Source of the DNA: Inhella sp.
Lineage (GTDB): Bacteria > Pseudomonadota > Gammaproteobacteria > Burkholderiales > Burkholderiaceae_C
Direction of reading: 5' to 3'
Length of the DNA stretch: 64,000 nucleotides
Assembly (NCBI RefSeq): GCF_027532025.1
Contig: NZ_JAPZSY010000006.1
Coordinates: 1-64,000, forward strand
Below are positions 8,447 through 28,468 of this stretch, one piece after another. How positions within the stretch are numbered: the first letter of the stretch is position 1; every line of letters starts with the position of its first letter. The notes below the pieces were generated by a model. It saw only the letters and a program-made list of their open reading frames with translations. It was not told where the DNA came from and did no database searches. The position numbers were made by a program, and so were the translations under genes.

Positions 8447-8464
8447 GCCCCCTGCCCATGATCA

Positions 8465-8487
8465 CCAGGCGCCCGGATGGCGCCTGG
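8465..8487 (+). promoter_or_regulatory. Hairpin overlapping the ugd ribosome-binding site
   Basis: Perfect 9-bp stem CCAGGCGCC/GGCGCCTGG with a CGGAT loop. The 3' arm contains the first two bases of the GGAG ribosome site at 8486-8489, five bases before the ugd ATG. There is no T tract, so it is a poor terminator for the cco operon and could instead limit ugd translation. Confidence 0.5.
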
Positions 8488-8494
8488 AGCGAGC

Positions 8495-9868
8495 ATGAAG
8501 ATCACCGTCATCGGTGCCGGTTACGTCGGCCTGGTCACCGCCGCCTGCTTGGCGGACATGGGCAACAGCGTGGTGGGCTTGGATGTGGACGAGGCGCGCG
8601 TGGCCTCGCTGGGTCAAGGCATCTTGCCCATCCACGAGCCCGGCTTGGACGGACTGGTGGTGCGCAACCAGCAAGCCGGCCGCCTGCGCTTTACCACCGA
8701 CGCAGGCGATGCCATTGCCCACGGCTCCATCGTCTTCATCGCAGTGGGCACGCCGCCCGCCGAAGACGGTTCCGCGGACTTGGCCCATGTGCTGAGCGCG
8801 GCGGCCACGGTCGGACGCCACATGAACGATTACAAGGTGGTGGTCAACAAGAGCACGGTGCCGGTGGGCACGGCGGAGAAGGTGCGCGCCACCCTCGCCG
8901 GTGAGTTGCAGGCGCGCGCGGCGGTGCTGCCGTTTTCGGTCGTCTCCAACCCCGAGTTCCTGAAAGAAGGCGCGGCCGTGGACGATTTCATGTCCCCCGA
9001 CCGCGTCATCGTGGGGGCCGACGACGACCGCGCTCTCTACCTGCTGCGCTCGCTGTATGCGCCTTTCCTGCGCAATCGCGACCGCCTGCTCACCATGGAC
9101 CCCCGCAGCGCTGAGCTCACCAAGTACGCCGCCAACGCCATGCTGGCCATGCGCATCAGCTTCATGAACGAGATGGCGCTGCTGGCCGACGCCGTGGGCG
9201 CCGACGTGGAGCAGGTGCGGCAAGGCATCGGCAGCGACCCGCGCATCGGCACGCACTTTCTGTACGCCGGTTGCGGCTGGGGGGGCTCGTGCTTCCCCAA
9301 GGACGTCAAGGCCTTGGCCCACCTAGGGCACGCCCAAGGGGTGGGCTCCCGGTTGTTGGACGCCACGCTGGCCGTGAACGACCGCCAGCGCGAGCTGTTG
9401 GCCGCGCGCGTGGTGCAGCGCTTCGGGCCCGATTTGCGCGGCCGGCGGTTCGCCGTGTGGGGCCTGGCCTTCAAGCCGGGCACCGACGACGTTCGGGAAG
9501 CCCCCAGCCGCGTGCTGATCGCCGAGCTCTTGGAGCGCGGCGCCGAGGTGGCCGCTTACGACCCGGTGGCCATGGCCAGCGCCGCGCGCCATTGGCCCGA
9601 TTTGACGGCCCTGAACTACGCGCCCGACCCCTACGCGGCGGCCCTGGGGGCGGACGCCCTGTTGGTCGTCACAGAGTGGCGCGAATTCCGCAGCCCCGAC
9701 TTCGAGCGCTTGCGGGGCGAAATGGCCACACCGATCGTCTACGACGGCCGCAACCTGTACGACCCCACCACCGTGCGCGCACTGGGCTTCGAGCATGTGG
9801 GCATCGGTCGTGGGACCTTGGTGGTGCCTGGGGTGGCCCAGCCCGAGCCCGAGCGTTTGCGGGCTTGA
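8495..9868 (+). CDS. ugd: UDP-glucose 6-dehydrogenase
   Basis: A 457-residue enzyme oxidising UDP-glucose to UDP-glucuronate with two NAD+. The Rossmann motif GAGYVGLVTAACLADMGN opens the protein, the catalytic cysteine is in GCGWGGSCFPKDVK (about residue 260) and the C-terminal domain starts with WGLAFKPGTDDVREAPS. I chose ATG 8495, spaced five bases from GGAG, over an upstream in-frame start. It lies between two halves of the usual cbb3-fnr-hemN neighbourhood and has a PhoB-box-like array in front. Besides capsule or LPS sugar supply, it could feed glucuronolipid synthesis with the glycosyltransferase at 22863. The stop abuts that of ndh with no gap. Confidence 0.95.
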   Translation: MKITVIGAGYVGLVTAACLADMGNSVVGLDVDEARVASLGQGILPIHEPGLDGLVVRNQQAGRLRFTTDAGDAIAHGSIVFIAVGTPPAEDGSADLAHVLSAAATVGRHMNDYKVVVNKSTVPVGTAEKVRATLAGELQARAAVLPFSVVSNPEFLKEGAAVDDFMSPDRVIVGADDDRALYLLRSLYAPFLRNRDRLLTMDPRSAELTKYAANAMLAMRISFMNEMALLADAVGADVEQVRQGIGSDPRIGTHFLYAGCGWGGSCFPKDVKALAHLGHAQGVGSRLLDATLAVNDRQRELLAARVVQRFGPDLRGRRFAVWGLAFKPGTDDVREAPSRVLIAELLERGAEVAAYDPVAMASAARHWPDLTALNYAPDPYAAALGADALLVVTEWREFRSPDFERLRGEMATPIVYDGRNLYDPTTVRALGFEHVGIGRGTLVVPGVAQPEPERLRA

Positions 9869-15503: not shown

Positions 15504-16742
15504 TCAGCGCCGCAACTGGCTGGCCGGGATGCGGATGGCGAAGCGGCTGCCTTGACCCGGCTGGGATTGGATGTCCAGTTCGGCGCCGTGGCGTTGCAGC
15601 ACGTGCTTGACGATGGCCAAGCCCAGCCCCGTGCCGCCGGTGCCTCGGGAGCGGCTGGCGTCCACCCGGTAGAAGCGCTCCGTGAGGCGCGGTAGGTGCT
15701 CGGCCGCGATGCCCACGCCTTCGTCCTGCACGGCGAACTCGCCGCCGCCGTCCGGCAGCGCGCACCAGCGCAGTTGCACCCGGCCACCGCCGGGGGTGTA
15801 GCGCAGGGCGTTGGAGACGAGGTTGGCAAAGGCGCTGTGCCACTCGCCCTCGGGCCCGGCCAGGTGCCAGCCCTCGGCGTCGTCCCACCCTTCGGCCTCA
15901 AGCGGGTGGTGGCCGTCGTCGAGCGCGCGGGCGTCGGCCAGCAAGCGCTCCAGCAGGGGGCGCAACGCAAAGCGCGATTCGGTGGTGGGCGGCGGGCTGC
16001 CCTCCAGTTGCGCCAAGGTCAGCAGGTCGGTGACCAAAGACTGCATGCGTTGCGACTGCTGCTGCATCAGCCCGTAGATCCGCTGGCGCTCGTCGCCGGT
16101 CAAGTCCAGGGCTTGGAGGCTCTCCAGAAATCCGCTCAGCACGGTGAGCGGGCTGCGGATCTCGTGGGACACATTGGCCACGAAGTCGCGCCGCATGCGT
16201 TCCATGCGCGCCGATTCGGTGATGTCCTGGGACACCAGCAGGCTCATCGGGCCGCGGCCGTCGTCGCCATAGCGGCGCAATGACAGCGCCAGTTTCAGGC
16301 TGCCGTTGTGCAGGGCGATTTGCGTTTGGCCTTCCGTGTTGGGGCTGGAGAGCAGTTCCACGAAGGCCGGCACGCGCACCAGGTTGCGCACGTTTTGCTG
16401 CAGGTCGCGCCGCAAGTCCAGGCCCAGGTGCTCGCCGGACACGTGATTCAGCCACTGGATGTGGTCGTCGGCGTCCAGCAAGACCAAGCCGTTGGGGTAG
16501 GCCTCCAAGGCTTGCAGGAACTGCTCGCGCCGTTGGCGCTCGCGTTGGGCCCGTGCTTCGCGCACGCGCAGCGCCTTTTCAACGCGGTAGGCCAGTTCGG
16601 CGTGCGCCCCATGGAGCCGCGGCGCGGGGCCGGCGGGGTCTCGGCCCACCCACCGCAGCAACCGGTGCAGTCGCCAGCGATCCAAAGCCCACAGCGACGC
16701 CGCGCCGACCGCGAGAGCCGCGCACCACCACGCTCCGCTCAT
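15504..16742 (-). CDS. phoR: Phosphate-regulon sensor histidine kinase
   Basis: A 412-residue kinase with a short N-terminal membrane segment (WWCAALAVGAASLWAL), a PAS domain around residues 75-180 (PNGLVLLDADDHIQWLN), the dimerisation box FVANVSHEIRSPLTVLSG with the phospho-acceptor His193, and an ATPase domain. The N box is NLVSNALRY and the G boxes are DEGVGI and GTGGTGLGLAI. The lack of a large periplasmic domain fits PhoR, which senses phosphate through PstSCAB and PhoU. It is the last gene of the operon, six bases after phoB. Confidence 0.94.
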   Translation of the reverse strand: MSGAWWCAALAVGAASLWALDRWRLHRLLRWVGRDPAGPAPRLHGAHAELAYRVEKALRVREARAQRERQRREQFLQALEAYPNGLVLLDADDHIQWLNHVSGEHLGLDLRRDLQQNVRNLVRVPAFVELLSSPNTEGQTQIALHNGSLKLALSLRRYGDDGRGPMSLLVSQDITESARMERMRRDFVANVSHEIRSPLTVLSGFLESLQALDLTGDERQRIYGLMQQQSQRMQSLVTDLLTLAQLEGSPPPTTESRFALRPLLERLLADARALDDGHHPLEAEGWDDAEGWHLAGPEGEWHSAFANLVSNALRYTPGGGRVQLRWCALPDGGGEFAVQDEGVGIAAEHLPRLTERFYRVDASRSRGTGGTGLGLAIVKHVLQRHGAELDIQSQPGQGSRFAIRIPASQLRR

Positions 16743-16748
16743 GGCCGA

Positions 16749-17441
16749 TCAGCCGGGGGCGGATTGACTCAGGCGGTAGCCCGAGCCGCGCACGGTCTCG
16801 ATCAATTCGGCGCAGCCTGCGGGGGCCAGCGCGTCGCGCAGCCGCTTGATGTGCACGTCCACCGTCCGCTCCTCGATGAAGACGTGATCGCCCCAGACCT
16901 TGTCCAGCAGTTGCGCCCGGGTGTGCACGCGCTCGGGGTGGCTCATCATGTAGCGCAGCAGGCGGAACTCGGTGGGTCCGAGGTGCAACTCGGTCTCGAG
17001 GTGGTAGACGCGGCGGGCCGCTGGGTCCAGCCGCAGCGAGCCGATGTGCAGCGGGGCCTCGAGGGCCTCTGGCGCGCGCCGACGCAGCAAGGCACGCACG
17101 CGGGCCATCAGTTCACCCGGCGAGAACGGCTTGGTCAGGTAGTCGTCGGCGCCTGCGTCCAGGCCTCGGATCTTGTCGCTCTCCTGCACGCGGGCGGTGA
17201 GCATGATGACCGGCAGGCTCTTGGTGCGCGGGTCTTGGCGCCAGCGCTGCAGCAAGGTGGTGCCGGGGTCGCCCGGCAGCATCCAGTCGAGGATGACCAG
17301 GTCGGGCAGTTGTTCGGTCACGGCGGCCAAAGCCTCCGCGGCGCTGGCGGCCATGCGGGGCTGGTGCCCCTCATGGCGAAGGTGCAGGGCAATGAGCTCC
17401 GCAATCGCCAGCTCGTCTTCCACGACGAGGACGCGTCCCAT
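16749..17441 (-). CDS. phoB: Phosphate-regulon response regulator
   Basis: A 230-residue OmpR-family regulator. The receiver has the acidic pocket VVEDE, phospho-acceptor Asp52 in LVILDWMLPG, and the lysine in DDYLTKPFSPGEL. The C-terminal winged helix ends RTVDVHIKRLRDAL and VRGSGYRLS. It binds 11-bp direct repeats (Pho boxes), candidates for which occur at five places in this window. It lies between phoU and phoR in the pst operon. Confidence 0.95.
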   Translation of the reverse strand: MGRVLVVEDELAIAELIALHLRHEGHQPRMAASAAEALAAVTEQLPDLVILDWMLPGDPGTTLLQRWRQDPRTKSLPVIMLTARVQESDKIRGLDAGADDYLTKPFSPGELMARVRALLRRRAPEALEAPLHIGSLRLDPAARRVYHLETELHLGPTEFRLLRYMMSHPERVHTRAQLLDKVWGDHVFIEERTVDVHIKRLRDALAPAGCAELIETVRGSGYRLSQSAPG

Positions 17442-17488
17442 GGTGTTTGCTCGCGGTTGGTCGGCCGCTCAGCGCGGCCGATTCAGGG

Positions 17489-18193
17489 TCAGGCGACGGC
17501 CGATTCCAGGCCTTCGGGCGGGGTGTGGCGCACGTCGGCGCCCTTGACGATGTAGATCACCTGCTCGGCCAGGTTCTTGGCGTGGTCGCCCACACGCTCC
17601 AAGGCCTTGGCGACGAAGACCAGGTCAATGGAGGCGCTGATGGTGCGGGGGTCCTCCATCATGTAGGTGACCAGCTTGCGCATCAGCCCGTCGAACTCGG
17701 CATCGATCTCGTTGTCCGACTTGATGACCTGCAGCGCGAGGTTGGCGTCCAGGCGGGCGAAGGAGTCCAGGGCCTTGCGCAGGCTGGAGTTGGCCAAGGT
17801 GGCCTCGGCGCTCATCTGGGTGGTCGGGAAGAGGCGGCCGTGCGTGCCACCGTGAATGAGCCGGTGGGTGATGCGGGCGATGCGCGCGGCCTCGTCGCCC
17901 ACGCGCTCGAGGTTGCCGATGGTTTTGGACACGCCGATGAGCAGGCGCAAGTCGCGCGCCGTCGGTTGGCGCCGCGCGATGATCCCCGAGAGGTCGCGGT
18001 CGATTTCCATCTCGATCTGGTTGACGCGCTCTTCGGTCTTGATGACCTGGGTGGCTTGGGCTTCATCGAAGTTGGCCAGCGCCTCGACGGCGGCGGCCAC
18101 CTGTTGTTCCACCAGGCCGCCCATTTCGAGCACGCGGGTGGAGATGGAGCTGAGTTCGGCGTCGAACTGGGTGGAAAGGTGCTTGTCGCTCAT
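17489..18193 (-). CDS. phoU: Phosphate signalling protein PhoU
   Basis: This 234-residue all-helical protein carries the two PhoU repeats. Typical segments are STRVLEMGGLVEQQVAAAVEA, EERVNQIEMEID, RDLRLLIGVSKTIGNLERVGDEA and the matching C-terminal ALERVGDHAKNLAEQVIYI. PhoU links the transporter state to PhoR and keeps the regulon off when phosphate is sufficient. It starts 13 bp after pstB. Confidence 0.96.
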   Translation of the reverse strand: MSDKHLSTQFDAELSSISTRVLEMGGLVEQQVAAAVEALANFDEAQATQVIKTEERVNQIEMEIDRDLSGIIARRQPTARDLRLLIGVSKTIGNLERVGDEAARIARITHRLIHGGTHGRLFPTTQMSAEATLANSSLRKALDSFARLDANLALQVIKSDNEIDAEFDGLMRKLVTYMMEDPRTISASIDLVFVAKALERVGDHAKNLAEQVIYIVKGADVRHTPPEGLESAVA

Positions 18194-18206
18194 GTCGTGC
18201 TCCTGA

Positions 18207-19001
18207 TCAACCGAACCGGCCGGTGATGTAGTCCTCGGTTTCCTTGCGCTTGGGCTTCATGAAGATGTCGTTGGTTTCACCGTACTCCATCAACTCGCCC
18301 AGGTACATGTAGGCGGTGTAGTCGCTCACGCGGGCGGCCTGCTGCATGTTGTGGGTCACGATGAGGATGGTGACCTTGTGCTTGATCTCGCCGATCAACT
18401 CTTCGATGGAGCCGGTGGCGATCGGGTCCAGCGCCGAGGTGGGCTCGTCGAACAGGATGATTTCCGGGTCGGTGGCCAGACCGCGGGCGATGCACAGGCG
18501 TTGCTGCTGCCCCCCCGACAGGTTGACCGCCAACTCGTCCAAGCGATCCTTCACCTCGTTCCACAGCGCGGCGCCCTTGAGGGCTGCTTCCACCTTGTCT
18601 TCGAGCACGGTGCGGTTGCGCTCGCCCCGCACCTTCAGGCCGTAGGCCACGTTCTCGAAGATGCTCTTCGGGAAGGGGTTGGGCTTTTGGAAGACCATGC
18701 TGATGCGCATGCGCACTTCGATGGGGTCGACGTCCTTGTGCAGGATGTCGACCTCGTCCGGGTGCAGGCGGATGCTGCCGTCGTAGCGGTGCCCCGGGTA
18801 GAGGTCGTGCATGCGGTTGAAGCAGCGCAGCAGCGTGCTCTTGCCGCAGCCGCTGGGGCCGATGAGGGCCGTCACCTTGTTCTCATACACGGGCAGGTTC
18901 ACGCCCTTCAGGGCCTTGAAGTCGCCGTAATAAAAGTCCAGGTTCTCGGCGTGGGCCTTGAGCGGGGGCGGGTTCGTCGGCAGGGTGATGGTGGAGGGCA
19001 T
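18207..19001 (-). CDS. pstB: Phosphate ABC transporter ATP-binding protein
   Basis: A 264-residue ABC ATPase. Walker A is [17 protein letters not shown], the signature is [16 protein letters not shown] and Walker B is [14 protein letters not shown]; the H-loop is VTHNMQQA. The segment [14 protein letters not shown] is characteristic of PstB, and so is the order pstC-pstA-pstB. It drives uptake of phosphate delivered by PstS. Confidence 0.97.
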
Positions 19002-19054
19002 TCGGTCAGTCCTCGATGAATTTCAGGGGCGGTGGGCGGGGCGCAAGCGGCCGA

Positions 19055-19990
19055 TCACCATTTGATGTTCTTGCGCAAGCGGTAGCGCAGCCAGATGGCG
19101 ATGGCGTTCATGGACAGGGTCATGAGCACCAGCACGAAGGCGGCGGCGGCGGCGTTTTCATGGAAGCGCGGGTCGGGCCGGCTGGTCCAGTTGAAGATCT
19201 GGATGGGCATCACGGAGAAGGGCGACCACAGCCAATCGAACAAGCCCGCGGTTTGGCCGGTCTCGATGCTGAGTTGACCCGGCGCCGGCGGCAAGAAGGC
19301 GATGAAGGTCAGCGCCCCGATGGTGATGATGGGCGCCGTTTCGCCGATGGCGCGGCTCATGCCGATGATCACGCCGGTCAAGATGCCGGGGGTGGCGTAC
19401 TTGAGCAGGTGGTCGTTCACCACTTGCCACTGCGACGCCCCGCAGCCGTAAGCCGCTTCGCGGATTTGCTGCGGGATGGAGCGCAGCGCTTCCCGCGTGG
19501 CCGTGATGACGATGGGCAAGATGAGCAGGCCCAGGGTCAGGCCGGCGGTGAGGATCGACTGGCCCAGACCGAAGGTGTAGACGAACAGGCCCAAGGCCAA
19601 CAGGCCGTAAATGATGGACGGCACGCCGGCGAGGTTGGTGATGTTGATCTCGATCACCCCCGTGAACCAGTTCTTGCGGGCGTACTCTTCCAAGTAGATC
19701 GCGCCCGCGATGCCCATGGGGACGGCGCACAAGGCCGTGACGGTCATCACCAGCACCGAGCCCACCCAACTGGACAAGATGCCGGCCTCGGCCGGCCGGC
19801 GAGAGGGGAAGTTGGTGAAGAACTCGGGGGTGAGGCGGGGAATGCCCGTTACCGCCATGTCGATGAACAGGGCAGCCAGGGTCAGGATGGCGACCGACAA
19901 CGCCATCAGCCCCAGCAGGGCGAACAGGATGTCAAAGCGCCGTGCCTTTTTGATCAGCGCACGAAGCTGCGCGGTCTTGTCGATGGTCAT
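19055..19990 (-). CDS. pstA: Phosphate ABC transporter permease PstA
   Basis: A 311-residue permease with six helices and the EAA-type loop REALRSIPQQIREAAYGCGAS. The motif YLEEYARKNWFTGVIEINI and ending RYRLRKNIKW match PstA. I place the start at 19990, where ATG overlaps the pstC stop (ATGA), rather than the much longer upstream frame, which is an overlap artefact. Confidence 0.95.
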   Translation of the reverse strand: MTIDKTAQLRALIKKARRFDILFALLGLMALSVAILTLAALFIDMAVTGIPRLTPEFFTNFPSRRPAEAGILSSWVGSVLVMTVTALCAVPMGIAGAIYLEEYARKNWFTGVIEINITNLAGVPSIIYGLLALGLFVYTFGLGQSILTAGLTLGLLILPIVITATREALRSIPQQIREAAYGCGASQWQVVNDHLLKYATPGILTGVIIGMSRAIGETAPIITIGALTFIAFLPPAPGQLSIETGQTAGLFDWLWSPFSVMPIQIFNWTSRPDPRFHENAAAAAFVLVLMTLSMNAIAIWLRYRLRKNIKW

Positions 19991-20943
19991 CAGTAGGCCT
20001 CGCGGAACTTGTTGCGCAGGTAGTAGCCGGCCAAGTTGAAGGTCAGGGTCAGCAGCATCAGCGACAGGCCGGCTGCAAAGATGGTTTGGTAGCCGATGGA
20101 GCCATGGGGCAAATCCCCCAGCGCCACTTGCACGATGAAGCTGGTGATGGTGGCAGCCGACTCCATGGGGTTGAGGGTCAGGTTGGGCTGCATGCCGGCG
20201 GCCACGGCCAAGATCATGGTTTCGCCCACGGCGCGGCTGATGCCCAGGATGTAGGCCGCGGCGATGCCGGACAGCGCCGACGGGACCACCACCTTCACCG
20301 CGGTTTGAAACCGGGTGCTGCCCATGGCGTAGGCGCCTTCGCGCAAGCTCATGGGCACGGCTCGCATGGCGTCTTCGCTCAGGCTGGCCACGTAGGGAAT
20401 GATCATGACGCCCATGACCAAACCCGCCGACAAGATGTTGAAGCCCGGCAGCTCCGGGAAGATCTTTTGCAACAGCGGCGTGACGACCAGCAGCGCGAAG
20501 AAGCCGTAAATAATGGTGGGCACGCCCGACAGCAACTCCAGCATCGGCTTGAGGGTTTCGCGGGTCTTGTGGCCGGCGAACTCGCTCAGGTAGATGGCGA
20601 TGATGGTGCCCAGCGGGATGGCCACGCACAGGGCCACGAAGGAGCTGGACAGCGTACCGGCCATCAGCACCATGATGCCGAAATGGGCGTCGTCGAACAG
20701 CGGTGTCCACTGCGTGTCGGTCAGAAAGTCCCAGATGGGGACGTTCGAGAAGAAGCTGATCGATTCGCGCACCAGGATGTACACGATGCCCAGCGTCGTG
20801 AACACCGACACGCTGGCGGCGGCGAGCAGCACCATTTCGATGACGCGTTCACGGCGTTGGCGCGCGCGCTTGAGGGCGGCGAATTCGGCGAGCTTGGCGG
20901 CACCAGCGGCGGAGGCGCCGGTCTCGGCAGGGGCGATGGCCAT
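19990..20943 (-). CDS. pstC: Phosphate ABC transporter permease PstC
   Basis: A 317-residue permease. After a cytoplasmic N terminus it shows six helices, the long periplasmic segment IWDFLTDTQWTPLFDDAHFG and the loop REGAYAMGSTRFQTAVKVVVP. IYLSEFAGHKTRETLKPMLE is typical of PstC. It is separated from pstS by 127 bp holding a hairpin, a common arrangement that lets pstS be made in excess. Confidence 0.95.
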   Translation of the reverse strand: MAIAPAETGASAAGAAKLAEFAALKRARQRRERVIEMVLLAAASVSVFTTLGIVYILVRESISFFSNVPIWDFLTDTQWTPLFDDAHFGIMVLMAGTLSSSFVALCVAIPLGTIIAIYLSEFAGHKTRETLKPMLELLSGVPTIIYGFFALLVVTPLLQKIFPELPGFNILSAGLVMGVMIIPYVASLSEDAMRAVPMSLREGAYAMGSTRFQTAVKVVVPSALSGIAAAYILGISRAVGETMILAVAAGMQPNLTLNPMESAATITSFIVQVALGDLPHGSIGYQTIFAAGLSLMLLTLTFNLAGYYLRNKFREAY

Positions 20944-20991
20944 GGAGGGGTCTCGGACGGAGGCAACAGGGGGTCTGTTGCGGATGGTGAA

Positions 20992-21016
20992 ACGGGCCCG
21001 GTGGTGCCGGACCCGT
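20992..21016 (-). promoter_or_regulatory. Intercistronic hairpin between pstS and pstC
   Basis: Stem ACGGGCCCGG/CCGGACCCGT (one G-T-type mismatch, five-base loop), followed on the minus strand by GTTTC. It could slow transcription or protect the pstS message 3' end, raising PstS relative to the permease. Confidence 0.5.
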
Positions 21017-21033
21017 TGTCACTGTACTTTCAT
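21016..21033 (+). promoter_or_regulatory. Weak PhoB-box-like repeat before pstC
   Basis: TTGTCAC-TGTA-CTTTCAT has the 7-4-7 layout with one core mismatch. It reads on the strand opposite to pstC, so a direct role is uncertain. Confidence 0.25.
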
Positions 21034-21070
21034 CAACGGACGCTCACCAGGGCGCGCGCCCGTGGGGTCA

Positions 21071-22054
21071 TCACAGTTGGGCTTCGCGGGCCAGCAGTTC
21101 GTCGATGGTCAAACCGACCTCGTTCTTGCCGCCAAACACGGTGCCCTTCTTGCCCTTGGCCACGTGCTCCAGCGCCAGGGTGTAGGCCTTGGCCGGCAGG
21201 GGCACGTACTTCACTTCCTTGGCGATCTTGGCCGCGTTCTTCATCAGGTAGTCCACGAACTCCTTGACTTCCGGCTTGGCCAGGGACTTGGCGTTGACGT
21301 AGACGAACACCGGGCGGCTCAGCGGCTCGTAGGTGCCGGCCAGCACGGAGGCCTCGCTCGGAGCGACGGCTTGGCCCTTGGGGTTGACGATGGGTACCGC
21401 CTTCAGCTTGCTGGTGTTCTCGGCGTAGTAGGCGTAGCCGAAGTAGCCGATGGCGTTGATGTCGGAGCTGACGCCTTGCACCAGCACGTTGTCGTCTTCC
21501 GACGCGGTGAAGTCGCCGCGGCTGGCTTTGCTCTTGCCGTTGATGGCTTCGGTGAAGTAGTCGAAGGTGCCGCTGTCAGCGCCAGCGCCAAACAGCTTGA
21601 TCGGTGCGTCTGGGAAGGTCGGGTTCACTTGGTTCCAGCGCGTGACTTTCCCTTGCGAATCGGGGCCGTAGATGGTCTTCAGCTCGGCCACGGTCAGTTG
21701 CTTGATGAAGGGGTTCTTCGGGTTGATGACGACGGTCAGCGCGTCAAAGGCGACGGGCAACTCGTAGTACTCGACGCCGGCGGCCTTGCAGTCGTCCATT
21801 TCCTTCTTGGAAATGGGGCGCGAGGCGTTGCTGATGTCGGTTTCGCCACGGCAGAACTTCTTGAAGCCGCCGCCGGTGCCCGAGATGCCGACGGTGACCT
21901 TCATGGCGCCTTTCTTGGCCTTCTGGAAGTCTTCCGCCACGCCCTCGATGATGGGGAACACGGTCGAAGAGCCGTCGATCTTCACGACCTGGGCGTGGGC
22001 GCCGAAGGCGGCGGTCAGGCCGATCAGGGCCAGGGCTTGGGCAATTTTGCGCAT
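21071..22054 (-). CDS. pstS: Phosphate-binding periplasmic protein
   Basis: A 327-residue solute-binding protein with a signal peptide (ALALIGLTAAFGAHAQ, cleaved after AHA). Conserved segments are KIDGSSTVFPIIEGVAEDF, the phosphate-binding ISGTGGGFKKFCRGETDIS and GADSGTFDYF. This is the SphX/PstS-2 type rather than the E. coli PstS sequence type. It heads pstSCAB-phoU-phoB-phoR. I chose ATG 22054, which begins the signal peptide and has AGGAA upstream. Confidence 0.95.
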   Translation of the reverse strand: MRKIAQALALIGLTAAFGAHAQVVKIDGSSTVFPIIEGVAEDFQKAKKGAMKVTVGISGTGGGFKKFCRGETDISNASRPISKKEMDDCKAAGVEYYELPVAFDALTVVINPKNPFIKQLTVAELKTIYGPDSQGKVTRWNQVNPTFPDAPIKLFGAGADSGTFDYFTEAINGKSKASRGDFTASEDDNVLVQGVSSDINAIGYFGYAYYAENTSKLKAVPIVNPKGQAVAPSEASVLAGTYEPLSRPVFVYVNAKSLAKPEVKEFVDYLMKNAAKIAKEVKYVPLPAKAYTLALEHVAKGKKGTVFGGKNEVGLTIDELLAREAQL

Positions 22055-22123: not shown

Positions 22124-22141
22124 ATGACGACTTTGTGACGT
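22124..22141 (-). promoter_or_regulatory. PhoB box before pstS
   Basis: On the minus strand the sequence is ACGTCAC-AAAG-TCGTCAT, two 7-mers with GTCA cores exactly 11 bp apart; a third GTCA lies 12 bp further upstream. Position about 70 bp before pstS is normal for PhoB activation. Confidence 0.75.
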
Positions 22142-22155
22142 CACCCATGACGGCC

Positions 22156-22827
22156 TCAGAGCGAAGGGAATGGGGCCGGGGATCGGGTGGAGGGCAGGTC
22201 CAACTGGTAGCCCAGGCCGCGTTGGGCGCGCACCAAGTCCGGCAGCCCGATGGCGGCCAAGACTTTGCGCAGGCGCCGCACCACTTGGTCCACGGTGCGG
22301 GGCTGGGGTTGGGCGTGAGGCGGCCACACGCGTTCTTGCAGCTCTTGCCGGGTGATGAGGCGACCGGGTTGGCGTGCCAGGCAGACCAGCAGGCGCAGCT
22401 CTACCGGCGGCACTTCGGCTTGGATCAGCCGGCCGGCGGGCAGGTCGCGCCCGACGAGCCCGCGGGCTTCGTCCACGCGCAAGGGCCCCACTTTCAGGAG
22501 GGGCAACGGGTCGGCCAACTCGGGCACCCAATGGGCCAGGGCGTTTCGCAGGGCTTGCGCATCGCCTTGCCAGGGCAAGGGGCGGCAGTGGGCGGCGAGC
22601 GGCGCTTGGGTCAGGCGGGCGAGGTCGTCGGGCGGTGCCACGACGAGGTCGGGTTGCAGCACGCCCAGCCAGCGCTCTGCTTGCGAGGGGTCGTCGGTGC
22701 GCGCCACCACCACGCCGTGCGATTTGGCCGCGCTGACGACCGGCTCCAGCACCGGGTGGGGCGGGCAGGCGATCAAGACGGTGGGCAGGGTGGGCACGGT
22801 GCGACGCGAGAGTGACGAGCCCGGCAT
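22156..22827 (-). CDS. Orphan OmpR/PhoB-like regulator with degenerate receiver domain
   Basis: About 223 residues. The C-terminal winged helix is clear: LRLLVCLARQPGRLITRQEL, then RTVDQVVRRLRKVL and RAQRGLGYQL. The N-terminal 100 residues thread as a response-regulator receiver (TVLIACPPHP ... LQPDLVVAP) but lack the acidic pair at the end of strand 1. At the position of PhoB Asp52 the sequence has proline (PDLVVAPPDD). It therefore probably acts without phosphorylation. No kinase is adjacent. Start choice is uncertain: ATG 22827 or GTG 22797. A PhoB-box-like repeat lies just upstream, and the gene reads toward pstS. Confidence 0.75.
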   Translation of the reverse strand: MPGSSLSRRTVPTLPTVLIACPPHPVLEPVVSAAKSHGVVVARTDDPSQAERWLGVLQPDLVVAPPDDLARLTQAPLAAHCRPLPWQGDAQALRNALAHWVPELADPLPLLKVGPLRVDEARGLVGRDLPAGRLIQAEVPPVELRLLVCLARQPGRLITRQELQERVWPPHAQPQPRTVDQVVRRLRKVLAAIGLPDLVRAQRGLGYQLDLPSTRSPAPFPSL

Positions 22828-22841
22828 GGTGCGCTCGGGCT

Positions 22842-22859
22842 GTGACACGGGCGTGACGA
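22842..22859 (-). promoter_or_regulatory. Candidate PhoB box before the orphan regulator
   Basis: Minus strand TCGTCAC-GCCC-GTGTCAC, two perfect GTCA cores 11 bp apart, squeezed between the glycosyltransferase stop (22863) and the regulator. It is only 15 bp before ATG 22827, which would favour the downstream GTG 22797 as the translated start. Confidence 0.45.
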
Positions 22860-22862
22860 TCC

Positions 22863-24074
22863 TCACGCCAAGCGCAACGCGGGGGGCAGTTCGGGTGCGA
22901 GTTCGGCCATGGCGGCGCGGTGGTGGCCTTCCACCTCGGCCACGATGCGGTCCCAGCCCAGGGTCAGGGCCACGGCATGGGCCTCGCGGCCCAGGGCGCG
23001 CAAGGCGGTGGGCAGTCGACCCAGATCCACCACGGCGCGGCAAAAGGTGGCGGCATCGCCCATGGGCGCCAAGGCGCCGGCTCGGTGATCCCTCAGGAGC
23101 ACGGCTGCTGCCGCGTAGTGGTAGGCCACCACCGGCAGGCCGCAGGCCATGGCCTCGGGCACCACGTTGCCGAAGGTTTCGGTCAGGCTGGGGAAGACGA
23201 ACAAATCGGCGCTGGCGTAGTGCGCGGCCAAGTCGTCGCCATGTCGAGTGCCGGCGAACAGGGCGTCGGGGCAGCGGGCCTGGAGGCGTTCGCGCTCCGG
23301 GCCATCGCCCACGAACACCAGCTTGGCCCGGGGCTCGACCAGGCGCAGGGCCTCGAAGGCATCCACGGCGGTGCCCAGGTTCTTCTCAGCGGCCAAACGG
23401 CCCACGCAGATGAGCACCGGAGCACCGTCTTCGGCGCCCCAATGGCGGCGCAGCGCGGTGCTGCGGCGCTCGGGGCGGAAGCGTTGCGTGTCCACGCCAC
23501 GGGCACTGGCGAACACGCGCTGGAAGCCCTGGCCCAGCAGCTGGTCGCGCAAGTCGGGGGCCGGAGCCAGGGTGCGCTGGCATTGGTTGTGGAACTTGCG
23601 CAGGTAGGCCAGGATGGGGTGACGCAGCCAACCCACGCCGTAGTGCTGGCTGTAGGCATGGAAATTGGTGCGGAACTCGCTGACCACGGGCAAGCGCAAA
23701 TGGCGAGCGGCTTGCAGCGCCGACCAACCCAGCGGGCCTTCGGTGGCCAGGTGAACGACGTCGGGCCGCTCGAAGCTCCAGCGCCGCACCAGGGCGCGCT
23801 TGGCCGGCAACCCCATCTTCAGTTCCGGGTAGCGCGGGATGGGCAAACCCCGCATCAGCATCTCGGCAAAACCTTCTTGCACGCGGGCGACGTCGTCGCG
23901 GCCCTGGCGGGGGCGGATGAGCTGCAGCTCGTGTCCGTGCTCCCGCAGGCCCTCCACCACGCGGGCGATGGTTCCAGCCACGCCGTTGACCTCGGGCGGG
24001 TAGGTCTCGGTGACGACGGCGATGCGCAGCCAGCGGCGGGCGCTGTTTTCGATGGCGATGTCGTTGCTGTTCAT
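22863..24074 (-). CDS. GT4-family glycosyltransferase, probable lipid glycosyltransferase
   Basis: A 403-residue GT-B enzyme of CAZy family GT4. The N-terminal domain begins RIAVVTETYPPEVNGVAGTI, a signature of lipid hexosyl/mannosyltransferases such as MgtA and SqdX. The donor-binding domain shows CVGRLAAEKNLGTAVDAF, FVGDGPERERLQA and the E-x7-E motif FPSLTETFGNVVPEAMACGLPVV. Its place beside the pst operon, with a PlcP-type phosphoesterase 3.5 kb away, suggests it glycosylates diacylglycerol during phosphate starvation, like Agt of alphaproteobacteria. Donor sugar and acceptor are inference. It is divergent from the membrane protein at 24203. Confidence 0.85.
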   Translation of the reverse strand: MNSNDIAIENSARRWLRIAVVTETYPPEVNGVAGTIARVVEGLREHGHELQLIRPRQGRDDVARVQEGFAEMLMRGLPIPRYPELKMGLPAKRALVRRWSFERPDVVHLATEGPLGWSALQAARHLRLPVVSEFRTNFHAYSQHYGVGWLRHPILAYLRKFHNQCQRTLAPAPDLRDQLLGQGFQRVFASARGVDTQRFRPERRSTALRRHWGAEDGAPVLICVGRLAAEKNLGTAVDAFEALRLVEPRAKLVFVGDGPERERLQARCPDALFAGTRHGDDLAAHYASADLFVFPSLTETFGNVVPEAMACGLPVVAYHYAAAAVLLRDHRAGALAPMGDAATFCRAVVDLGRLPTALRALGREAHAVALTLGWDRIVAEVEGHHRAAMAELAPELPPALRLA

Positions 24075-24138
24075 GCGGCCATCGTGGCCCGGAGATGCGA
24101 CGGCTTGATGACGCTCCCTTCACCGCATTGGCATCGAA

Positions 24139-24186
24139 CCGTCATCGCCGATTCACGCGTGCACGGGAGCATCACGGCTCCGTCAT
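24139..24186 (+). promoter_or_regulatory. Two candidate PhoB boxes in the glycosyltransferase / membrane-protein intergenic region
   Basis: CCGTCAT-CGCC-GATTCAC (24139-24156) and GCATCAC-GGCT-CCGTCAT (24169-24186) each have the 7-4-7 layout with 11-bp core spacing and one degenerate half. Both lie in the 128-bp divergent gap. Confidence 0.4.
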
Positions 24187-24202
24187 CAACCTGGAGCCCC
24201 CA

Positions 24203-24817
24203 GTGACTGCATTCATGGAAGCGCTGCGCACGCAGCGCTGGGACGACCACCGCTACTACCACCACAGCCGCATCAACCAGAGCCTGCACCTGTTGAGCGC
24301 GCTGAGCTTCTTGGTCGCCTACGGCCTCGTGTTCGTGGACCCGGCTTGGGCCGCCTTGTTGGCCTGGGGGGTGTCGATGACCTCGCGGCAAGCGGGTCAC
24401 TTCTTCTTCGAGCCGCGAGGCTACGACCACGTCAACCAGGCCACGCACGAGCACAAGGAGGCCATCAAGGTGGGCTACAACCTGCGCCGCAAGGTGGTTC
24501 TGATGGCCGCTTGGGCGGCGTTGCCCGTGTGGCTGTGGTTGGATCCGACTTGGGCCGGCCTGATTCAGCCGGCCGCGAACCTCACGGAGTACGCGCACGA
24601 CGTGGGCATGGCTTGGTTCGCGTTGGGCGTGGTCGGGCTGAGTTTCCGCACCCTTCACCTGTTCGTGCTGGCCGATGTGCAGACCGGCATCGTGTGGGCC
24701 ACCAAGATCCTGACCGACCCCTTCCACGACGTCATGCTGTACTGGCGTGCGCCGCTGCACCTGCTGCGCGGCGAGCTCATCGACCCGATGCCGCACGCCC
24801 AAACCCCTGCCCACTGA
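24203..24817 (+). CDS. Histidine-rich integral membrane protein (possibly Mpo1/DUF962-like)
   Basis: About 204 residues with four or five helices. Histidines cluster at helix ends: HRYYHHSRINQSLHLL, RQAGHFFFEPRGYDHVN and THEHKEAIKVGYN, resembling metal-ligand spacing in fatty-acid hydroxylases and the Mpo1 (DUF962) dioxygenases that act on 2-hydroxy fatty acids. I am not certain of the family. GTG 24203 is preferred because CTGGAG ends six bases before it; ATG 24215 is the alternative. Its lipid-gene neighbours and shared PhoB-like sites suggest a role on lipids. A terminator follows. Confidence 0.6.
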   Translation: MTAFMEALRTQRWDDHRYYHHSRINQSLHLLSALSFLVAYGLVFVDPAWAALLAWGVSMTSRQAGHFFFEPRGYDHVNQATHEHKEAIKVGYNLRRKVVLMAAWAALPVWLWLDPTWAGLIQPAANLTEYAHDVGMAWFALGVVGLSFRTLHLFVLADVQTGIVWATKILTDPFHDVMLYWRAPLHLLRGELIDPMPHAQTPAH

Positions 24818-24839
24818 GGGGTTCGCGTGCAGCACGCGC

Positions 24840-24866
24840 AGGCCCGCCCCGGCGGGCCTTTTTGTG
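24840..24866 (+). terminator. Terminator after the membrane protein
   Basis: Perfect 9-bp stem AGGCCCGCC/GGCGGGCCT with a two-base loop, then TTTTTG. Confidence 0.9.
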
Positions 24867-24871
24867 GGCGC

Positions 24872-26515
24872 TCAGCGCCGGCGCCAGGCGGCCCAGGTTT
24901 CCTGGATCAGCCGGCGCCGCAGCGCCGGGGCGGCGGGCGCTTCGTCCCACCATCCGTCGGCTTGCATTTGCGCGCAGGCGGCCGCAAAGCGGTGGCACAG
25001 GGTGTCGAAATCGGTTGCGCTGAAGTCCAGCGTGAACACCATGCGGCCCGTACCCACCCACGACAGCGCCACGCCTTGCTCGCGCAAGTAGAACTGCAGC
25101 AGCCAGTGGTAGCGCCCTGGCTGCGTGTAGGCCACGCTCCACACCGAACTCCAATGCGACACGCGCACCGGCCAGCCGCCGTCTTGCAGGATCCGGTTCA
25201 GGCGCGCGGCACGGGCGTCCCAGCGCGACTCCTGGCCGGCGTACAGGGCCTGGACCTCGGGGGTGTCGAGCTGCTCGAGAAACACTTGGATGCCCATGAC
25301 CACGTGCGGGTGCGCGTTGAAGGTGCCGCGGGCGAAGCAAAGGTCGGCCGGTCGGTCGTCTCGGTAGCGCTTCATCCAGCGCGCCTGCCCGCACAGCACC
25401 CCCAGCGGGAAGCCGCCGCCCAGGGTCTTGCCGTAGGTCACCAAGTCTGCCTGCACGCCAAAGCGCTCTTGCGCGCCGCCCGGGGCCAGCCGGAAGCCCA
25501 TAAAGACTTCGTCGAAGATGAGGGCGATGCCGCGCTCGCTGCACACCGCGCGCAGCTGCTCGAGCCATGCGCGGTAGGCTTCGGCGTCGACGGCGGGCAG
25601 CGTGCGTGCGCCCATCAAGCCGCTGTCGCCCGGAGCGGCCTTGTTGGGGTGCAGCACCTGCAAGGGGTTGACCAGCACGCAGGCGATGTCGCGCCGGGTG
25701 CGCAGCACGCGCAGGCTGCGCTCGTCCAGGTCGCGCAGGGTGTAGGTGTCTTGAGCGGGCATGGGGTTGCCCGGGCCGGGCTGCACATCGCCCCACCAGC
25801 CGTGGTAGGCCCCGCAAAAGCGCACCAGCTTGCGGCGCCCTGTGTGGTAGCGGGCCAGGCGCACGGCCTGCATCACCGCTTCGGTGCCCGACATGTGAAA
25901 GCTGACCTCGTCCTGGCCCGAGAGGCGACGCAGGCGCTGCACCACGTCCAGCATGGCTTCGGGGTAGGTGCCCAGGCCCACGCCATAGGGCAAGGCGCGG
26001 CGCTGGGCTTCGGCCATGCTGCGCTGGTAGAAGGCGTGGCCCAGCACGTTGACGCCGTAACTGCCGGTCAGGTCCAGCAGGCGCTCGCCGTCCAGGTCGA
26101 CCACCCAGGCGCCATCCACCCGTTGCACGAAGGCGCCGACGCCGAGCAGGCCCCGCAGGGTGGCGCTGAAAGGGAAGGGCACGCGGTAGGCGCCCGTCAG
26201 CTGCAAGTCGCTCAAGCCCTCGCGCGCCTCGCGGGTGGCCGCCAGGCTGCGCGCATGGCGGGTATTCAGCTTGTGGGCCAGGCGCTGCAAGCCTTCGCGC
26301 CGGCGGCTTTGCAGCGCCAGGCTGGCGCCGTCGGCGCCATAAAAAGCGTCGCCCTCGAGCCGGTAGCCCGGCAGCCAGCGCGCCAGGCGCAGGGCCATCT
26401 TGCTGTGGCCGGTCAGGCTGGGGTGCTTGGCCACCGACAGCTGCAAGCGTCTCACGGCTTTGGGCAGCAGGGCCAGCCCGGTGCCGGCCGCGGCCAGCGT
26501 CATCCATTCCGTCAT
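24872..26515 (-). CDS. Class III PLP-dependent aminotransferase (glutamate-1-semialdehyde-mutase-like) with N-terminal extension
   Basis: A 547-residue protein. Residues from about 125 on form a fold-type I class III aminotransferase: GSYGVNVLGHAFY, FHMSGTEAVMQAVRLARYHT, CGAYHGWWGDVQ, LIFDEVFMGFRL and the PLP lysine in TYGKTLGGGFPLG. It resembles glutamate-1-semialdehyde aminomutase but is 110-120 residues longer at the N terminus, where a hydrophobic stretch (TLAAAGTGLALLPKAV) may tether it to the membrane. Lying 28 bp from a divergent phosphatidylserine decarboxylase, it is unlikely to serve heme synthesis. Its substrate may be an amino-lipid or a lipid headgroup; that is inference. AAGGAA five bases upstream supports the start. 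Confidence 0.8.
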   Translation of the reverse strand: MTEWMTLAAAGTGLALLPKAVRRLQLSVAKHPSLTGHSKMALRLARWLPGYRLEGDAFYGADGASLALQSRRREGLQRLAHKLNTRHARSLAATREAREGLSDLQLTGAYRVPFPFSATLRGLLGVGAFVQRVDGAWVVDLDGERLLDLTGSYGVNVLGHAFYQRSMAEAQRRALPYGVGLGTYPEAMLDVVQRLRRLSGQDEVSFHMSGTEAVMQAVRLARYHTGRRKLVRFCGAYHGWWGDVQPGPGNPMPAQDTYTLRDLDERSLRVLRTRRDIACVLVNPLQVLHPNKAAPGDSGLMGARTLPAVDAEAYRAWLEQLRAVCSERGIALIFDEVFMGFRLAPGGAQERFGVQADLVTYGKTLGGGFPLGVLCGQARWMKRYRDDRPADLCFARGTFNAHPHVVMGIQVFLEQLDTPEVQALYAGQESRWDARAARLNRILQDGGWPVRVSHWSSVWSVAYTQPGRYHWLLQFYLREQGVALSWVGTGRMVFTLDFSATDFDTLCHRFAAACAQMQADGWWDEAPAAPALRRRLIQETWAAWRRR

Positions 26516-26543
26516 CGTCGTTCCTTGGAGGTCGAGTGCATCG

Positions 26544-27491
26544 ATGTCCGAGGGTGTAGTTCCTTGTCTTGACAACGTCATGAACCCTGTCACCTCACCG
26601 ACTTCCGCCTCCCCCACGCCCCGCCGCCGCTGGCGCGACCGCTTGTTGCTGAACGAGGACTTGAACTTCCTGCTCACCAACCGCGTGCCCCGCATCGCCT
26701 TGACGCGCTTCATGGGCTGGTTCAGCAAGGTCCGCTCGCCCGCGTTGACGCGGCTGAGCCTGTGGGTGTGGCGCCAGTTCACCGACTTGGACCTGAGCGA
26801 CGCCAAGCAGCAGCGCTTCGACAGCCTGCACGCCTGCTTCACCCGCGAGTTGGTGCCCGGCGCGCGGCCCATTGCTGCCGACCCGGCCGTGCTGGTCAGC
26901 CCGAGCGACGCCATCGTGGGTGCGCTCGGTCGGGTCGAGGCCGGCACCGTGTTGCAGGCCAAGGGCATGCCTTACCCCCTGGCCGAGTTGTTGGGCAGTG
27001 CCGACGACGCCGCCGAGTTCGAGGGCGGCCACTACCTGACCCTGCGGCTGACCTCGGCCATGTACCACCGCTTCCATGCGCCCGACGACGCCACCGTGAC
27101 CGATGTGCGTTACCTCAGCGGCGACACCTGGAACGTCAACCCCATTGCCCTGAAGCGCGTGGAGCGCCTGTTCTGCCGCAACGAGCGCGCCGTGCTGCGC
27201 CTGCGCTTGCATGACGACCGTCCCCTGCTGATCGTGCCGGTGGCGGCCATTTTGGTGGCCAGCATGCGACTGCACTGCCTCGACGTGCTGCTGCACTTGC
27301 GCTGGCGCGGGCCGCGGGACACGCGTTGCCACGCGCCAGTGCGGCGCGGCCAAGAGTTGGGCTGGTTCGAGCACGGCTCCACCCTGGTGCTCTTGGTACC
27401 GCCCGACCTGCAGCCCTTGGTGACCCCCGGGGAGCGCTTGCGCATGGGGCAGCCCCTGTTGCGACGCTCGGTTGTCATGCCGGTGTCGTGA
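26544..27491 (+). CDS. psd: Phosphatidylserine decarboxylase
   Basis: A 303-315 residue PSD proenzyme. LPYxLTR-like N-terminal text (NRVPRIALTRFMGWF), the catalytic segment [40 protein letters not shown] and the self-cleavage site HGSTLVLLVPP are present. The G-S-T serine becomes the pyruvoyl cofactor. PSD makes phosphatidylethanolamine in the inner membrane. I prefer ATG 26544 because GGAGGT lies 11 bases upstream; ATG 26580 has no ribosome site. It is 22 bp from the next gene and divergent from the aminotransferase. Confidence 0.92.
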   Translation: MSEGVVPCLDNVMNPVTSPTSASPTPRRRWRDRLLLNEDLNFLLTNRVPRIALTRFMGWFSKVRSPALTRLSLWVWRQFTDLDLSDAKQQRFDSLHACFTRELVPGARPIAADPAVLVSPSDAIVGALGRVEAGTVLQAKGMPYPLAELLGSADDAAEFEGGHYLTLRLTSAMYHRFHAPDDATVTDVRYLSGDTWNVNPIALKRVERLFCRNERAVLRLRLHDDRPLLIVPVAAILVASMRLHCLDVLLHLRWRGPRDTRCHAPVRRGQELGWFEHGSTLVLLVPPDLQPLVTPGERLRMGQPLLRRSVVMPVS

Positions 27492-27513
27492 GCCCTGGGC
27501 AGCATGGGCAGTC

Positions 27514-28383
27514 ATGCAACGCGACGCCCTGCCCGAACTCGCGGCCCTCTTGCCGCCGCCCGGAAACGACCCCGACGAGGGCGGCGAGCCCGGCGGCTTG
27601 CGACTGCGCACCGTGTGGATCAGCGACCTGCACCTGGGCACCCCGGGTTGCCAGGCGCAAGCGCTGCTGCACTTTCTGCGCCATGTCGATTGCGACACCC
27701 TGTACCTCGTGGGCGACATCGTCGACGGCTGGCAGTTGCGCCGGCACTGGTTTTGGCCCCAGGCGCACAACGACGTCGTCCAAAAACTGCTGCGCAAGGT
27801 GCGCAAGGGCACGCGTGTTGTCTTCGTGCCGGGCAACCACGACGAGTTCGCCCGCAAGTACCTGGGCCACAGCTTTGGCGGCATCGAGGTGCTGGGCGAG
27901 GTCATCCACACCTTGGCCGATGGTCGGCGGTTGTGGGTCACCCATGGCGACCATTTCGACGGCGTGATCCAAATCGCCAAGTGGCTGGCCCACCTGGGCG
28001 ATTGGGCCTACACCCGTGCGCTGGAGGCCAACCATGCCCTCAACTCCCTGCGCGCCCGCTTGGGACTGCCCTACTGGAGCCTGTCGCGCTACCTCAAGCT
28101 CAAGGTCAAGCGGGCGGTGGCTTACGTGGACGACTTCGAGCGCGCCGTGGCGCGCGAAGCCCGCGCCCGTGGACTGGATGGGGTGGTGTGCGGGCACATC
28201 CACCATGCCGAATTGCGCGACATCGACGGCATCCTGTACGCCAACGACGGCGACTGGGTGGAAAGCCTGACCGCCCTGGCCGAGCACGCCGACGGAAGGC
28301 TGGAGGTCATCGACTGGACCGAGCGCTGGGCGCAAGCCGTGCGCCCCAAGTTGCCCTTGGCCCTGCCGGCCCCCACCGCCTGA
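27514..28383 (+). CDS. PlcP-type metallophosphoesterase (phospholipase C-like)
   Basis: This 289-residue calcineurin-like phosphoesterase has ISDLHLGTPGCQA, YLVGDIVDGWQL, VPGNHDEFARKY, THGDHFD and GHIHHAE, giving all metal ligands. Segments WPQAHNDVVQKLLRKVRKGT, WLAHLGDWAY and YWSLSRYLKLKVK are those of PlcP, the rhizobial enzyme that cleaves phospholipid headgroups from PE/PC to give diacylglycerol under phosphate starvation. Such proteins are often mislabelled UDP-2,3-diacylglucosamine hydrolase; true LpxH is at 32459 here. It is co-transcribed with psd and lies close to the pst/pho genes and a GT4 enzyme. Confidence 0.82.
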   Translation: MQRDALPELAALLPPPGNDPDEGGEPGGLRLRTVWISDLHLGTPGCQAQALLHFLRHVDCDTLYLVGDIVDGWQLRRHWFWPQAHNDVVQKLLRKVRKGTRVVFVPGNHDEFARKYLGHSFGGIEVLGEVIHTLADGRRLWVTHGDHFDGVIQIAKWLAHLGDWAYTRALEANHALNSLRARLGLPYWSLSRYLKLKVKRAVAYVDDFERAVAREARARGLDGVVCGHIHHAELRDIDGILYANDGDWVESLTALAEHADGRLEVIDWTERWAQAVRPKLPLALPAPTA

Positions 28384-28408: not shown

Positions 28409-28468
28409 GGGCGGGATTCGGGGCGGGATTCGGGGCGGGGTTCAGGGCGGGGTTCAGGGCGGGGTGGG
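28409..28468 (+). repeat. 12-bp tandem repeat, five copies
   Basis: GGGCGGGATTCG x2, GGGCGGGGTTCA x2, then GGGCGGGGTGGG, in the gap between the convergent phosphoesterase and cspA. The first copy also pairs with CCCGCC at 28400-28405 to form a short hairpin. Purely non-coding; copy number is likely variable. Confidence 0.9.

Follow-up and report, generated by a model that had tools for sequence, protein, structure and literature searches.

We describe a gene cluster in a stretch of 64,000 nucleotides from Inhella sp. (Burkholderiales; contig NZ_JAPZSY010000006.1, positions 1 to 64,000), hereafter the window. The cluster combines a class III pyridoxal phosphate (PLP) aminotransferase (AT), a small Mpo1-like membrane protein (MPO) and a second phosphatidylserine decarboxylase (PSD2) with a GT4 glycosyltransferase and a PlcP-like metallophosphoesterase (Table 1). 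In several lineages of Pseudomonadota, AT, MPO and PSD2 recur as a conserved core, often accompanied by PHO-box-like repeats. We consider it rather likely that the locus is a PhoB-controlled membrane-lipid-remodelling module, in which the core together with GT4 would make a phosphorus-free, nitrogen-bearing surrogate lipid. Replacement of phospholipids by phosphate-free lipids shapes bacterial life under phosphate scarcity, and the core with its repeats occurs in bacteria many of which carry freshwater and soil genus names.

A preliminary reading of the DNA (the original prediction) had proposed phosphate-starvation lipid remodelling for positions 22156-28383. The genes that it named, for GT4, the PlcP-like protein, PSD, a membrane protein and an aminotransferase, are all present with Pfam or NCBIfam matches. 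The full pst-phoU-phoB-phoR set adjoins them as seven neighbouring minus-strand genes (15504-22054), each above its curated NCBIfam cut-off. The range holds the module genes but begins with a separate gene for an OmpR-type DNA-binding protein (22156-22827). The remodelling itself is favoured by the conserved gene set, by the PHO-box-like repeats and by the presence of PlcP in every family genome with AT, but not by closeness to pst or by an Agt-type GT4, neither of which held up. Beyond what had been proposed, PSD2 is a dedicated second copy, AT and MPO are hardly ever apart, and the module occurs in other lineages, where it is joined by a methyltransferase resembling PmtA or by a fusion of a PHP-like domain with GT4.

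Conservation of the core and its variable partners

Conservation was followed in three sets of loci, 129 in all besides the window: 32 other loci of the family (stretches of 11-20 kb bearing an AT orthologue), 80 named contigs (the best 80 of at least 581 confirmed candidates, mostly Burkholderiales or Rhodocyclales) and 17 loci from a phylum sample. Of their AT sequences, 125 are distinct; three pairs are identical between the family and named sets. The family sample comprises 120 genomes of 119 genera, and the phylum sample 398 Pseudomonadota genomes. From the 25 phylum-sample genomes with AT, 18 stretches were taken together (one of them a 4.4-kb contig), G114 and G091 were taken separately and the window is the 21st; the loci of G229, G277, G449 and G496 were left out.

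MPO and PSD are each present in 31/32 family, 77/80 named and 17/17 phylum-sample loci, and a divergent GT4 gene accompanies them in 28/32 family and 73/80 named loci. As for the misses in the family set, L033 has its MPO gene about 15 kb away and L049 stops at a contig end. Among the named contigs, MPO or PSD is missing six times, five times at a contig end; the case of L120 is not accounted for in this way. Because MPO, PSD and divergent GT4 recur in 31, 31 and 28 of the 32 other family loci, the gene order is not a chance assembly. What stays constant in the module is the trio of AT, MPO and PSD2, and what varies is GT4 and PlcP. The survey of gene neighbourhoods proposed with the original prediction thus bears out that the genes stay together, but not that they stay near pst: a pst or phoU gene lies within the stretch in 1/32 family, 8/80 named and 0/17 phylum-sample loci (9/129 overall, in at least three arrangements), and pst adjacency is rejected as a general rule.

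AT and MPO also go together across whole genomes. The long AT (E <1e-195) is found in 33 of the 120 family genomes, the next class of matches starting at about 1e-46, and the MPO profile matches precisely these 33. In the phylum sample, AT and MPO each occur in 25/398 genomes, with 24 in common and 26 positive for either; the two exceptions, G246 (whose AT contig measures 4.4 kb) and G377 (78% complete), share one genus. PlcP is more widespread, with 87/120 family genomes including all 33 that carry AT (naive P 2.9e-6); this P value, like the genome counts, ignores relatedness. Neither AT nor MPO is found in 54 of these 87 genomes. In the phylum sample, where absence means no match at E 1e-40, PlcP occurs in 148/398 genomes and in 18 of the 25 with AT; the seven without a match are the six genomes of L170-L175 and G246.

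The source genome encodes two phosphatidylserine decarboxylases, both above the TIGR00163 cut-off. PSD2 (143.8 bits, cut-off 111.75) keeps the motifs YHRFH and GST, the latter at residue 266, and thus resembles the E. coli-type enzyme in score and in its YHRxH and GST motifs. It differs as a distinct second-copy subfamily with an N-terminal motif of its own. The motifs NFLLTNR.PR and SGDTWNVNPIAL are common to PSD2 and to the PSD2s of L165, L167 and L172, which belong to other lineages. Since identity to these three is 53-56%, as against 31% to the paralogue in the same genome, PSD2 probably represents an old, dedicated subfamily.

AT retains the PLP-site motifs SGTEA, DEV and YGKT behind an N-terminal extension of about 110 residues. 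It shares its PLP motifs with MycA-type aminotransferase domains of lipopeptide synthases, from which it differs in standing alone and in its extension, the first 35 residues of which include a hydrophobic stretch (15-residue mean of at least 1.6) in 107 of the 129 relatives; the window's own AT falls short, at 1.43. Its structure model is mediocre (mean predicted local distance difference test score, pLDDT, 76.2). MPO is predicted to be helical (mean pLDDT 90.9). PF06127 matches all 32 members of the MPO alignment weakly (best E 3.2e-5), and H16, N21, H25, G61-H62 and E66-P67 are invariant among them; the H, N, H and GH..E spacing presumably resembles that of Mpo1-like proteins. A profile search of PDB sequences returned no match to MPO up to E 1. 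Compared with the Mpo1-like 2-hydroxy fatty acid dioxygenases of this Pfam family, MPO is likewise a small membrane protein, though a weak match, and is set apart by its near-constant aminotransferase partner.

The PlcP-like protein matches PF00149 and keeps five metal-site motifs, and no second copy was found in the source genome at E 1e-5. LpxH was rejected as its identity, since the LpxH models give 43.5 and 35.1 bits, far under their cut-offs of 134 and 190. GT4 probably acts on a lipid; its best NCBIfam model is N-acetylglucosaminyl-phosphatidylglycerol synthase (150 bits, cut-off 480). It had been taken for a PlcP-linked glycosyltransferase of the Agt type, an assignment that the GT4 tree does not support. 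In this FastTree phylogeny, read for topology only and built from about one-sixth of the module GT4s and all others, with PlcP-linked GT4s standing in for characterised Agt, the module GT4s from the Beta lineage group together, and the PlcP-adjoining GT4s of L031, L097, L111, L122 and L154 make up a clade apart from them. The latter five match the published PlcP-Agt arrangement. On the basis of this tree a simple identity of GT4 with Agt was rejected. Four of these five loci hold both kinds of GT4, and L122 is cut by a contig end. The GT4s of L160-L163 and L176 stand beside the PlcP-linked clade, and the L131 GT4 and the fusions described below are separate.

Two variants were found outside the family. 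In all ten loci of three other families (L160-L163, L165-L169 and L176, from another class of the same phylum), a PmtA-like methyltransferase gene lies near MPO, its products being 57-100% identical to that of L160. Those of L160, L165 and L167 match PmtA best (NF045882, E 3e-44 to 7e-39), at 134-151 bits and thus below the cut-off of 390. The gene sits between GT4 and MPO in L160 and L165, and directly before MPO, without GT4, in L167. A search of the remaining 119 loci at E 1e-15, which did not include the window, gave no match to it, and it is not among the cluster genes of the window as read.

The second variant concerns L170-L175, where AT, PSD2 and MPO share a strand with GT4, which forms the C-terminal portion of an approximately 900-residue protein; the order is operon-like, AT-fusion-PSD2-MPO. 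The contig of G246 (locus L074) carries only the start of the fusion, which comes directly after AT and is 92% identical over residues 4-456 before the contig ends. In the N-terminal part of the fusion, HxH, NH, E, H and DH are invariant and in this order in the six sequences of L170-L175, which we take to be the metal motif list of PHP phosphoesterases. No Pfam PHP match was obtained for this part at E 10 in any of the six. Alignment by hhalign with a PHP protein of the source genome gave E 0.003 and a probability of 10% over the first 88 columns only, single-sequence BLASTP with that protein was not significant, and a profile search of PDB sequences returned nothing meaningful up to E 10. 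The PHP-like domain adjoins AT in all seven AT genomes without a PlcP match (the GT4 fusion being seen in six, with one cut by its contig), and for this reason it may replace PlcP there.

PHO-box-like repeats

Intergenic regions were scored for two YGTCAY half-sites 11 bp apart, with a maximum of 10. The score was modelled on the pstS region with a consensus that PMC8528852 also gives. Between GT4 and MPO, 95 of 103 regions score at least 9 at spacing 11, and no more than 29 do so when the spacing is given another value between 7 and 22 (the last of these twice 11). The mean score there is 9.1, compared with 7.4 for dinucleotide shuffles. In 58/100 of these regions a -10-like NANNNT is found at offset 27, counted from the box start, other offsets reaching no more than 25 (offset 38 being 27+11). 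After thinning at 75% AT identity, 37/42 GT4/MPO regions and 12/47 AT/PSD regions score at least 9.

Within the window, the GT4-side repeat is the best-supported candidate among those of the module; it is kept in L022 and occurs in a diverged form in L080. The MPO-side repeat at 24129 is kept in L022, and the one between AT and PSD2 in both L022 and L080. In L160 and L163, TGTCATCAATCTGTCAG lies about 73 bp ahead of the start of the AT alignment.

Proposed pathway and competing explanations

The order of events that we infer is as follows. At low phosphate, PhoB would turn the module on, and PlcP would strip phosphate-bearing head groups to leave diacylglycerol, from which GT4 and the core would assemble a phosphorus-free lipid with nitrogen. 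MPO would most likely oxidise a lipid-bound carbon, and AT would aminate the resulting carbonyl at the face of the membrane. PSD2 would decarboxylate a serine-like head group, and the PmtA-like enzyme of some other lineages would methylate the amine. That an oxygenase-like protein and a PLP enzyme are hardly ever apart suggests consecutive steps, oxidation and then amination. A dedicated decarboxylase, joined elsewhere by an N-methyltransferase, suggests an amine head group, and PlcP in every AT genome of the family sample fits a swap of phospholipid for another lipid. The product is probably a nitrogen-bearing surrogate lipid. A more specific version, which we put forward tentatively and regard as unlikely in its full detail, is a phosphorus-free mimic of phosphatidylethanolamine (PE) or phosphatidylcholine (PC): the diacylglycerol from PlcP would gain a head group, which MPO would oxidise and AT would convert to an amino acid; its decarboxylation by PSD2 would yield an amine for PmtA to methylate. 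In this version, the PHP-like phosphoesterase fused to the glycosyltransferase would have replaced PlcP where this is missing.

The exchange of phospholipid for glycolipid by PlcP and a glycosyltransferase under PHO boxes is established in other bacteria (PMC4796936, PMC9239053, PMC8528852). PHO boxes, a PlcP-like phosphoesterase, GT4 and the link to phosphate starvation are what the present module has in common with PlcP-Agt remodelling in rhizobia, marine bacteria, Pseudomonas and methanotrophs. It differs by the AT-MPO-PSD2 core, the other GT4 clade and the PHP-like-GT4 fusion where PlcP was not found. Phosphate-free lipid pathways described so far are few, namely glycolipids, betaine lipids, and ornithine and related lipids (in part after PMC4796936, PMC8590670, PMC9239053 and PMC8528852). 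A literature search that covered few subscription journals returned no paper joining an aminotransferase or a phosphatidylserine decarboxylase with PlcP remodelling, and did not find the AT-MPO-PSD2 core. The core points to a candidate lipid class for which no genes have so far been assigned. The interpretation of genomes with respect to lipid remodelling would also change with a dedicated second decarboxylase and with a PHP-like-GT4 fusion that takes the place of PlcP.

Several results weigh against this interpretation. The control regions speak most strongly against the repeats being unique: among other divergent intergenic regions of the same loci, 23/91 score at least 9 and 11/91 reach the full score, and at other spacings no more than 13/91 reach 9, the 13 being at spacing 22. 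Fourteen control regions score at least 9.5, and because several of them flank genes that by eye resemble phoX, ppx, ppk, ugd, lplT or a phosphate-binding protein gene, the control set seems to include true PHO boxes. The AT/PSD regions are poorer than those between GT4 and MPO, with 42/111 scoring at least 9 at spacing 11 (at most 18 at other spacings) and no -10 peak at offset 27. In the window, the module repeats are imperfect (9/10), the MPO-side repeat at 24170 is not conserved in its sister L022, and the one between AT and PSD2 overlaps the ATG of PSD2. PlcP shares the stretch with the core in only 15/32 family, 36/80 named and 0/17 phylum-sample loci, and GT4 was not seen in the fetched stretches of four loci (L166-L169). 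The window's MPO is below the PF06127 cut-off (18.6 of 24 bits, E 0.003), and its model gave 42 matches to PDB folds up to E 10, none below 0.001, and none reaching Z 5 (best Z 3.8), a result that does not show a new fold. Lastly, the solved chain nearest to AT by profile is the MycA aminotransferase domain (6kfm, E 8e-65), which would speak for acyl rather than head-group chemistry.

An amine on the acyl chain is the main rival to an amine head group. AT would then act on an acyl chain or a long-chain ketone and MPO would shorten or oxidise 2-hydroxy fatty acids, giving an amino-acyl or sphingoid-like phosphate-free lipid, which we find possible but doubtful. The MycA aminotransferase domain works on beta-ketoacyl-acyl carrier protein, and for AT it outranks glutamate-1-semialdehyde aminomutase (E 2e-48); Mpo1-like proteins are moreover the main family found for MPO. 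Such a pathway leaves PSD2 and the PmtA-like gene without a role. Inspection by eye of the recurrent frames, which were not searched with a family library, turned up neither an acyl carrier protein nor a ketosynthase. The amination and acyl modification named in the original prediction keep the standing of proposals, AT being nearest to a lipopeptide synthase domain and MPO weakly to Mpo1.

The locus could also be a plain exchange of phospholipid for glycolipid by PlcP and GT4, with AT, MPO and PSD2 as Pho-regulated neighbours from unrelated pathways. Besides the precedent of PlcP-glycosyltransferase exchange elsewhere (PMC4796936, PMC9239053, PMC8528852), PHO-box-like repeats also precede other neighbours, by eye ugd, lplT, ppk and phoX, which indicates that the module often lies in Pho-rich surroundings. 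We nevertheless hold this to be improbable, because it is AT, MPO and PSD2 that are constant and GT4 and PlcP that vary, and because the AT and MPO genome sets are nearly identical while most PlcP-bearing family genomes lack both. There is an equally slim chance that the module tunes ordinary phospholipids, PSD2 and the PmtA-like enzyme resetting PE and PC with AT and MPO supplying or recycling a precursor. The score of PSD2 as a phosphatidylserine decarboxylase and the PmtA-like gene in ten of ten loci of three other families agree with this. More phospholipid during phosphate starvation would however be counter-intuitive, PSD2 is distant from the other decarboxylase of its genome, and the PmtA-like gene is confined to those ten among the loci searched.

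Finally, that AT is the glutamate-1-semialdehyde aminomutase of haem synthesis, here by chance, is highly improbable and was rejected: models of this enzyme are its top NCBIfam matches, but at 169 and 166 bits against cut-offs of 398 and 527 (TIGR00713, 165.5/527), AT carries the long N-terminal extension, its nearest solved relative is MycA, and 87/120 family genomes have no match of its strength.

Neighbouring genes and minor observations

Table 1. Features of the window discussed in the text, with positions, strand and basis of assignment.
Feature	Position	Strand	Basis and remarks
phoR, phosphate sensor kinase (neighbour)	15504-16742	-	TIGR02966, 364 bits, cut-off 334
phoB, phosphate response regulator (neighbour)	16749-17441	-	TIGR02154, 325 bits, cut-off 296
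phoU, pstB, pstA, pstC, pstS (neighbours)	17489-22054	-	TIGR02135, TIGR00972, TIGR00974, TIGR02138, TIGR02136, all above cut-off
pstS	21071-22054	-	within the phoU-pst block
pstS PHO box, CGTCACAAAGTCGTCAT	22124-22140	-	perfect tandem, 10/10; third 11-bp unit upstream, by eye
Orphan OmpR-type DNA-binding protein	22156-22827	-	PF00486, E 1.2e-16; start codon picked by eye
GT4 glycosyltransferase	22863-24074	-	PF13692, E 4.8e-31; also PF13439
GT4 PHO-box-like repeat, CGTCATCAAGCCGTCGC	24097-24113	-	9/10; CACGAT at offset 27, by eye
MPO-side PHO-box-like repeats (two)	24129-24186 (starts 24129, 24170)	+	box score, 9 each
MPO, Mpo1-like membrane protein, 200 residues, His-rich	24215-24817	+	PF06127, weak match
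AT, class III PLP aminotransferase, 547 residues	24872-26515	-	PF00202, E 1.7e-33
AT/PSD2 PHO-box-like repeat, TGTCTTGACAACGTCAT	26565-26581	+	score 9
PSD2, second phosphatidylserine decarboxylase	26580-27491	+	PF02666, E 1.9e-55; TIGR00163
PlcP-like metallophosphoesterase	27514-28383	+	PF00149, E 2.5e-11; 22 bp past PSD2

The orphan OmpR-type protein is encoded about 35 bp downstream of GT4, between pstS and GT4. No receiver domain was detected in it, and the PhoB model TIGR02154 gives only 52.6 bits against a cut-off of 296. Clear full-length relatives were found only in L022 (69% identity) and L080 (40%), the remaining matches being weaker and short. On the other side of the cluster, the PlcP-like gene is followed by clpS and clpA, named by eye, and just past it lies a tandem repeat at 28409-28465 (period 12, 4.8 copies, unit GGGCGGGGTTCA).

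A relative of UDP-glucose dehydrogenase is encoded at window positions 8462-9865, about 13 kb from GT4; a nucleotide sugar dehydrogenase of this type occurs in 31/129 stretches and an LplT-like gene, named by eye, in 56/129. PHO-box-like repeats were also seen near the module at L047:5428, L149:16843, L042:14253 and L119:14857, before lookalikes of UDP-glucose dehydrogenase, LplT and diacylglycerol kinase (by eye except for L047). The organism labels of L123, L129 and L151 (Akkermansia muciniphila and Bordetella parapertussis metagenome-assembled genomes) may be wrong: L123 and the Limnohabitans locus L121 have an identical AT.

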